This document shows positions 1,581-1,880 of a stretch of DNA of 33,375 nt, in pieces; the first letter of the stretch is position 1, and every line of letters begins with the position of its first letter. Source of the stretch: a virus. The notes beneath the pieces were generated by a model. The model was not told where the DNA came from. It was given only the letters and a program-made list of their open reading frames with translations, and ran no database searches. Both the position numbers and the translations under genes were made by a program. Where the stretch lies: positions 1 to 33,375 of IMG/VR virus record IMGVR_UViG_3300048625_000195. One strand, written 5' to 3'.

Positions 1581-1880
1581 TTCATACTCTGAATGGCTGT
1601 TCAATGTATGAAAGTCGCCCACTCTATGAACCGTGTTGCGAATAGCTCGCGTTCATACATCTAGTGTATCACATCGGCAATTATATGAAAAGCTGAATCC
1701 ACTATATGAACAACAGACAGGCGAGTATGAAAGTGTGAATTCATAGCTATGAAAAGTATGAAATCTATGAAAAGCTAAGTATGAAGTTTTCATAGATGTA
1801 TGAATTGGCTGTTCACACTTCTAATACTGAATTCATAGATCTTTTCACACTCTTCATATCTTCACAGATTAGATTTCATA
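1581..1880. repeat. TATGAA/TTCATA hexamer array, 17 copies
   Basis: TATGAA starts at 1607, 1625, 1684, 1705, 1726, 1748, 1757, 1766, 1780 and 1799. TTCATA starts at 1581, 1652, 1740, 1789, 1832, 1853 and 1875. Several intervals are 21-22 bp (1684-1705-1726-1748 and 1832-1853-1875), which is two helical turns, and others are 9 bp. Near-matches TGTGAA/TTCACA fill some gaps. Such phasing indicates cooperative protein binding on one face of the DNA. Candidate binders are the adjacent FtsK/TraB-like translocase, the 510-aa protein or the 4329 regulator. Confidence 0.85.

Follow-up and report, generated by a model that had tools for sequence, protein, structure and literature searches.

A TATGAA array beside and inside a TraB-like gene of a tailed phage: a possible second docking array of a plasmid-type DNA transfer module

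What is the role of a dense array of one six-letter word in a gene-poor region of a phage genome? The question is raised by the window analyzed here, a stretch of 33375 bases from the virus record IMGVR_UViG_3300048625_000195. Apart from 4 mismatches, its first 220 bases recur at the far end, which makes a circular or permuted genome of about 33.16 kb probable. Among the recognizable products (Pfam, PHROG) are portal, large terminase, head, scaffold, tail-tube, and tape-measure proteins, and the nearest named relatives of the phage infect actinobacteria. The original prediction took the word TATGAA to form a protein-binding array that could be an origin, a centromere, or a transfer site (clt). 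The array and its neighbors are as follows.

3 to 1322, minus strand: first 440 residues of a protein of about 510 amino acids (the 510-aa protein); via the end repeat, the gene continues in 32945-33155.
1323 to 2251: gene-poor region separating the 510-aa gene from the TraB-like gene (ORF listing).
1581 to 1880: core TATGAA array, 17 copies, 10 on the plus and 7 on the minus strand (direct count).
1883 to 1912, plus strand: dispersed element, one copy, bordering the core array.
2163 to 2249, minus strand: five direct TTTTAGG repeats, four of them as GGTTTTAGG, in traB sense, directly behind the traB stop.
2199 to 2246, minus strand: terminator-like hairpin whose loop is one GGTTTTAGG unit.
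2252 to 4186, minus strand: TraB-family FtsK/SpoIIIE-like DNA translocase, 644 aa (NCBIfam, PHROG).
2255 to 2497, minus strand: C-terminal 81 residues of the translocase, a predicted winged helix (gamma-like domain; AlphaFold2).
2358 to 2614: second TATGAA cluster, 12 copies, inside the TraB-like gene (linker and start of the C-terminal domain).
4323 to 4757, plus strand: 144-aa protein with an endonuclease-VII-like zinc-finger part and a helix-turn-helix (HTH), divergent from the TraB-like gene.

The gene-poor region has no ORF of more than 59 aa wholly inside it, and an 83-aa ORF at 2196-2447 overlaps its end. Counted on either strand, TATGAA or TTCATA occurs 17 times within 1581-1880, at the positions first reported. 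The spacings are also as described, namely 21-21-22 bp (1684-1705-1726-1748), 21-22 bp (1832-1853-1875), and 9-9 bp (1748-1757-1766). That the copies are far above chance was borne out by 5000 first-order simulations of the AT-rich 300-bp stretch, in which TATGAA appeared 0.52 times on average and never more than 5 times. When the window was simulated 200 times with a third-order Markov model, the densest 6-mer, whatever its sequence, had 4-7 copies per 300 bp, as opposed to the 17 observed here. The hexamer is not equally dense elsewhere in this record, with 0.73 copies per kb outside the core and the second cluster; the total for the whole window is 53, compared to 27.2 in shuffles. Chance or base composition as the cause of the array is excluded by the Markov and local-composition simulations. 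A known structured RNA was also set aside, with no Rfam match at gathering score in the window, L018, or L024. A near-variant of the word, TGTGAA, has 9 of its 23 window copies in 1500-2700 (seen over 1734-2578), and the true motif may be TRTGAA.

The array extends into coding DNA. With the second cluster, which the original prediction missed, it has 29 copies over about 1 kb. Ten of the copies in the gene are in the sense orientation (six in one frame, four in another), and two are antisense. When the codons of the gene were shuffled synonymously, the mean was 3.71 copies and the maximum 9 in 3000 trials. Since these shuffles fall short of the 12 copies observed, the DNA word itself is kept, beyond what the peptide alone would explain, and repeated amino acids are ruled out as the sole cause of the coding copies.

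The protein encoded here is a relative of TraB, which is the DNA pump of Streptomyces conjugative plasmids. The 644-aa protein matches the NCBIfam model NF041214 (plasmid_TraB) with an E of 2.5e-71 and 241 bits; as the equivalog cut-off is 800 bits, it is named TraB family rather than TraB proper. It also matches the FtsK/SpoIIIE families of PHROG, and there is no Pfam match at E 0.05. The architecture is that of TraB: an FtsK-type motor, a predicted C-terminal winged helix, and, by eye, an N-terminal membrane part. The AlphaFold2 model of the C-terminal 81 residues has a pLDDT of 81 and the order H-H-H-E-E, and structure searches of the PDB return winged helices for it. FtsK/SpoIIIE is not among the best 50 matches listed in each of these searches, which says little because winged helices are very common. 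A winged-helix profile search against PDB sequences found weak or unrelated chains only. The link that had been proposed between the array and this translocase gains support, as clt sites belong to the TraB family.

Is the array peculiar to one genome? The group sample comprises three genomes, all IMG/VR contigs (the window, G001, and G007), and the module is known in these three only. G001 (33701 bp) was reached via its terminase, which is 72% identical to that of the window; its TraB-like protein is 37% identical. G007 (34071 bp) was reached via a Walker-motif DNA pattern and carries the same TraB type. The terminase scan also led to two fragments of the same group, L009 (100%, 7.2 kb) and L011 (67%, 4.5 kb), and to four distant loci. 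TraB is present in one of the six terminase-scan records searched, that of G001 (L015 left out). Scans of viral_contigs with TraB and the 510-aa protein gave nothing beyond G001 and G007, scans of genome_contigs gave no additional members, and 25 further viral_contigs loci had no tblastn match to any of eight module proteins. The TraB-like proteins of the window and G007 had no tblastn match in phages at E 1e-5; at E 10, the same search returned 44 records, the best being of the P1312 type near E 3e-4. In plasmids, tblastn with the G007 protein finds 52 records, 44 of them from Streptomyces and several annotated as traB.

Both relatives keep an array, though with other words. In G001, the word TATCAAA occurs 23 times between the gene for the 510-aa homolog and that for TraB, with another 11 copies in the linker region of TraB. 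The 34 copies of CGAACA in G007 span 8607-9165; 19 fall within a DUF2637-like gene, and the others follow it, shortly before a 145-aa gene and the gene for TraB. Counted per 300 bp, TATGAA has 17 copies, TATCAAA 22, and CGAACA 16, and the most clustered word in 10 simulations per genome reached 4-6 (6-mers) or 3-4 (7-mers). Synonymous shuffles of the in-gene words gave 1.35 compared to the 11 observed in G001 and 4.34 compared to the 16 observed in G007. A dense word, selection inside coding DNA, and arrays that are kept while the word changes together argue well, at the level of sequence, for the original idea of a protein-binding array. Between G001 and G007, the TraB motor is 90% identical and the winged-helix region 27%, and the array words differ.

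The predicted helical phasing is found in the window (Rayleigh R 0.58, p 0.003 at 10.5 bp against random nonoverlapping placement, uncorrected for the three periods tried, with nothing at 10.0 or 11.0), is weak in G001 (p 0.015), and is lacking in G007 (p 0.25). The window also has a switch of polarity. The sites are mostly on the plus strand to the left of about 1815 and mostly on the minus strand to the right, coding copies included. The permutation p is 0.010 for all 29 sites and 0.147 when the 17 core sites are taken by themselves. In G001 the polarity is likewise convergent (p 0.001), and in G007 it is not (p 0.46). Phasing and polarity are traits of two of the three genomes, not of the class.

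A second array in the window, which did not figure in the original prediction, is made up of the (G)GTTTTAGG repeats directly behind traB, accompanied by a single GTTTTAG in inverted orientation at 2145. At the matching position of G001 there are six copies of GTTTTAG, all in gene sense, and G007 has CTAGGAA seven times about 260 bp behind its traB, in gene sense throughout. The window and G001 have the (G)GTTTTAGG word in common, while TATGAA and TATCAAA differ. Plasmids have similar repeats. CCGCACA is repeated directly behind the traB stop and in traB sense in pJV1 (9 copies), pSN22 (6), and NBC_00104 (8). In pWTY27, TGACACC spans the tra stop; four linear plasmids carry GCGCACC behind traB in mixed orientation; and pRL1 and an Amycolatopsis plasmid carry CTGACA. 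By a plain count, a repeated word lies within 250 bp behind tra in 10 of the 11 TraB-type plasmid loci examined, with none clear in pFP4. The TRS of pSVH1 is GACCCGGA, a sequence for which a literature search gave no confirmation. For pWTY27, footprint and mating evidence is described that the Tra protein binds and needs its clt site, 16 bp of which extend into traA, and clt sites are described as consisting of 3-9 direct repeats near tra or a different plasmid gene (PMC3583192).

By analogy, the (G)GTTTTAGG repeats look like a clt-type TraB loading site. The TATGAA core starts at a distance of 372 bp behind the traB stop, and the other 12 copies are in the gene, so it is (G)GTTTTAGG and not TATGAA that has the position of a clt. 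The proposal that the TATGAA array is a clt holds as far as its TraB-family neighbor goes, but the place behind traB is taken, and “the clt” is therefore not the best name for it. The identities of winged helix and motor were compared among nine plasmid and three phage TraB proteins, a comparison that omits pFRL2 (annotated traB out of frame at its end) and pFP4. All eight pairs with the same 3' word have a winged-helix/motor ratio of at least 0.83, the pairs being uncorrected for relatedness. Among pairs with different words, 20 of 58 also reach a ratio of 0.8, nearly all at low identity, and G001/G007 stand out, with 30% for the winged helix against 87% for the motor in this comparison. Position, and less so this ratio, favors (G)GTTTTAGG over TATGAA as the TraB site, TATGAA then being a second element.

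Some smaller observations concern these loci. At 1979-2060 of the window, between the clt-like repeats and the core array, there is a noncoding block that by eye is conserved with G001 (CCCTCTGAGAGCCACG ... AGATGTGAG). G007 has a block (CAGGTCANTATAGGG ... CCTTCCGTAAGTAAGG; L024:11600-11940) beside its CTAGGAA repeats that by eye is inverted relative to G001. It looks like a promoter directed at the repeats, and there may thus be a small RNA that contains them. In pFRL2 (L060:5452-7527), the annotated traB runs out of frame near its end, perhaps through a sequence or annotation error.

Which protein might read TATGAA? Besides the translocase C-terminal domain, the candidates first put forward were the 510-aa protein and the 144-aa regulator. 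A further candidate is the DUF2637 protein, listed below with the gene behind it.

30326 to 31195, minus strand: DUF2637 (SpdB2-like) membrane protein (PF10935, E 3.1e-9, above the cut-off).
29772 to 30263, minus strand: 163-aa protein without a family match, encoded directly behind the DUF2637 gene.

The 510-aa protein may be the reader, and its gene adjoins the array in the window and G001. However, the gene is 2.8 kb from the array in G007, and the protein does not diverge with the word. Every comparable 60-column stretch is 40-75% identical, with none collapsing as the word changes (the end of the window's protein lies outside the comparison). At E 1, it has no homolog in the phage collection (which includes P1312, Keanu, and Galactica) or in the plasmid collection; it has no Pfam relative and two chance-level PHROG matches. 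Its predicted model is poor (pLDDT 61), with no structure match at E 0.001. The 144-aa protein is unlikely as a general reader and was dropped, since no homolog was found in G007 (blastp at E 1e-5 against ORFs of at least 60 aa), yet G007 has an array.

The DUF2637 protein has a conserved C-terminal part that is HTH-like by eye. This part is 64% identical between the window and G001, whose words (TATGAA and TATCAAA) are rather alike, and 19-24% identical to that of G007 (CGAACA). The DUF2637-like proteins of G001 and G007 have no Pfam match of their own and are linked via the window protein, at E 1.9e-40 and 2.5e-7, respectively. Neither in the window nor in G001 does the gene adjoin the array. 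Its order in G007 (DUF2637-like, 145-aa, TraB) resembles that of pWTY27 (DUF2637, small protein, TraA, TraB); it precedes TraA and TraB in NBC_00104 as well and follows traB in pFRL2. The gene list of the pWTY27 paper (PMC3583192), set beside the record annotation, suggests that DUF2637 is SpdB2. The SpdB2 protein of pSVH1 is described as a membrane protein that oligomerizes, interacts with TraB, and binds DNA nonspecifically (PMC4170104). The C-terminal part of the DUF2637 protein could be the TATGAA reader and, if the array is a docking site, is slightly ahead of the TraB winged helix as a candidate.

Arrays near FtsK genes are also found in named phages, and one is found in a plasmid. In Thermobifida phage P1312, the 12.7 kb examined contain 26 copies of GGTCCGG, 24 being located in the gene that directly follows the FtsK gene. 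Keanu has it 15 times in 12.6 kb, with 9 copies in the gene before the FtsK gene, and Galactica has an array like that of Keanu (13 of 23; shuffle-tested word CCGGACC). The last two have the word CGGACC in common and winged helices that are 84% identical. In the synonymous shuffle test, 23 copies compared to 3.05 were found for P1312, 8 compared to 0.70 for Keanu, and 10 compared to 0.82 for Galactica. Hiyaa and Spocter, close relatives of Keanu, have the same words in the matching place, in clusters that do not rise above 100 Markov simulations each. Plasmid pNBC_01177 has CGCCCCG 15 times in 400 bp, compared to at most 8 in 100 simulations; this array lies at 4854-5242 of its locus, between annotated genes, and a DUF2637 gene adjoins it. 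The FtsK of P1312 matches plasmid_TraB weakly (E 8.2e-7) and that of Keanu has no match, which makes them more distant FtsK proteins. The array gene of P1312 has no Pfam match, and the DUF2637 match of Keanu's is below the cut-off.

The stretch that matches the array gene of Keanu and Galactica is annotated on the opposite strand in Hiyaa (L065:4230-5558) and Spocter (L066:4533-5558), so its coding is uncertain. Dense in-gene repeats near tra, all in one frame, are present in pWTY27 (L056:6043-6269), pFP4 (L061:4262-4478), and pSN22 (L051:5796-5964). Being in one frame, they may reflect protein repeats, unlike the phage arrays.

The reading preferred here is that the TATGAA array is a second docking array of a TraB/DUF2637 module and probably not the clt proper. 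It is a tentative reading, slightly more apt to be wrong than right. The array would be a cis-acting, multi-copy docking site of about 1 kb, and the phage-carried module, of a plasmid type for DNA transfer or segregation, would consist of the membrane-anchored TraB-family translocase and the DUF2637 (SpdB2-like) membrane protein. A DNA-binding domain at the end of one of these membrane proteins would read a 6- to 8-bp word many times, and by doing so would anchor the phage DNA at the membrane or pass it to the pump. The double-stranded phage DNA would then be moved or partitioned between cells or hyphal compartments, and (G)GTTTTAGG behind traB would load TraB itself in the manner of a clt.

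Several results point to such a docking site: a cluster beyond chance with coding copies beyond synonymous shuffles, the arrays of G001 and G007, and the above-chance arrays near FtsK in P1312, Keanu, and Galactica and in pNBC_01177. To these are added the G001/G007 pair, in which the motor is kept but winged helix and word have both changed, and the DUF2637-TraB gene order in pWTY27 and G007 together with the described SpdB2-TraB interaction (PMC4170104). Counted against it are the place of DUF2637 away from the array in the window and G001 and the nonspecific binding described for SpdB2 in the same paper. So are the distant FtsK proteins of Keanu and P1312, the chance-level clusters of Hiyaa and Spocter, the G007 array without phasing or polarity, and the single-frame in-gene repeats of pSN22, pFP4, and pWTY27. 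A wider claim, which is doubtful, is that a tailed phage pumps its dsDNA between cells or hyphal compartments through a plasmid-derived TraB/DUF2637 machine with two cis arrays, a clt-type loader and a long anchor embedded in coding DNA, and that quick swapping of the anchor word would give each phage its own transfer specificity.

The main rival to a docking array is an iteron-type origin, in which the 510-aa or another phage protein would act as initiator on TATGAA repeats near AT-rich DNA for a plasmid-like maintenance. A model for it is pWTY27, a theta plasmid with a TraB-type tra, for which a 300-bp iteron with 7- and 8-bp repeats in both orientations is described beside a 522-aa RepA (PMC3583192); the array adjoins the 510-aa gene in the window and G001 in a like manner. 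No integrase, ParA, or known initiator was found among 40 Pfam-scanned window proteins (the open 440-aa piece plus 39 of 48 listed ORFs; 20 at E 0.05 and 20 at E 0.001), which leaves room for a maintenance system of this kind. This reading is rather unlikely in view of G007, where 2.8 kb separate the 510-aa gene from the array, which lies within a DUF2637-like gene, and of a 510-aa protein with no stretch collapsing as the word changes, a poor model, and no structure match. P1312, moreover, has an array, but no homolog of the 510-aa protein was found in it at E 1, and it is described as encoding a DnaB-like helicase and a serine recombinase (PMC4569894).

That the array is instead the TraB loading site itself, a strict clt recognized by the winged helix of TraB, is unlikely, mainly because the place directly behind traB is filled by (G)GTTTTAGG. 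The (G)GTTTTAGG word is common to the window and G001, whereas TATGAA and TATCAAA differ, and the winged-helix/motor ratios fit (G)GTTTTAGG as the site, if weakly. In favor of a strict clt, the arrays of the window and of G001 lie partly behind and partly within traB, winged helix and word change jointly between G001 and G007 while the motor is kept, and Keanu and Galactica have the word and much of the winged helix in common. Orientation is no bar either, given the mixed-orientation repeats behind traB in four linear plasmids. Quite improbable is a centromere-like or regulatory array with a reader outside the TraB/DUF2637 module, for example a parS-like one without a recognizable ParA. The parS loci of the extrachromosomal mycobacteriophage RedRock are of similar scale, each being described with eight direct copies of an 8-bp word (PMC7157519), but neither ParA nor ParB has a match among the 40 Pfam-scanned or 20 PHROG-scanned window proteins, and no par genes were found beside the array. 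As for a regulatory array, the HTH protein of 144 aa has no homolog found in G007, and copies in coding DNA in all three phages are unusual for a plain operator.

How does the array compare to known systems? Like the clt of pJV1, pIJ101, and pWTY27 (and of pSN22, by sequence here), it is a short repeated word beside traB that differs between elements, but its 29 copies, spread over 1 kb and in either orientation, extend deep into coding DNA. It resembles the repA/iteron region of pWTY27 in its extent of about 300 bp and in having short repeats in both orientations; unlike theta-plasmid iterons, the phage arrays are not tied to one rep-type gene across the three phages and lie partly in TraB- or DUF2637-like genes. 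With parS-L and parS-R of RedRock, it has in common a multi-copy word (8 bp there) in a phage genome, but those are direct repeats read by ParB, and the scanned window proteins include no ParA or ParB. In the case of KOPS and SRS, a winged helix at the end of the translocase (FtsK or SpoIIIE) recognizes short words, and the convergent polarity of two of the three phages is a further likeness. KOPS, however, are dispersed over the chromosome, whereas here there is one dense local array, with the word at background density outside the locus.

No report of such arrays in phages was found in the open-license literature (titles and abstracts, among the matches listed). The finding ties the DNA pumping of conjugative plasmids to phages, and G001 and G007, whose motors are 90% identical but whose winged helices and words differ, amount to a natural experiment on specificity. 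A candidate DNA-binding array is written into coding DNA of disordered linkers in several phages, in unrelated words, and the pairing of array and reader can be tested directly by an exchange of pieces.

Next to the 144-aa gene, a collagen-like repeat protein is encoded.

4792 to 5484: collagen-like repeat protein (PF01391, E 4e-13), perhaps a tail or fiber protein.

The dispersed element at the edge of the core array has 11 copies in the window (37, 287, 1883, 4768, 10023, 10077, 17200, 22878, 24488, 27412, and 33192). It consists of a common stretch around GGATTACTGTTGTTA followed by a phage-specific tail, which is TAGTGCCGCTAACT in the window, TATGTAAAACCTTTT in G001, and TAGTCAGAAAACTCT in G007. 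Many copies are intergenic, and others are in frame inside the 510-aa gene of all three phages. The element could be a promoter with a phage-specific operator. One G001 copy (L017:9940-9970) ends in the G007 type of tail, which might stem from an exchange.
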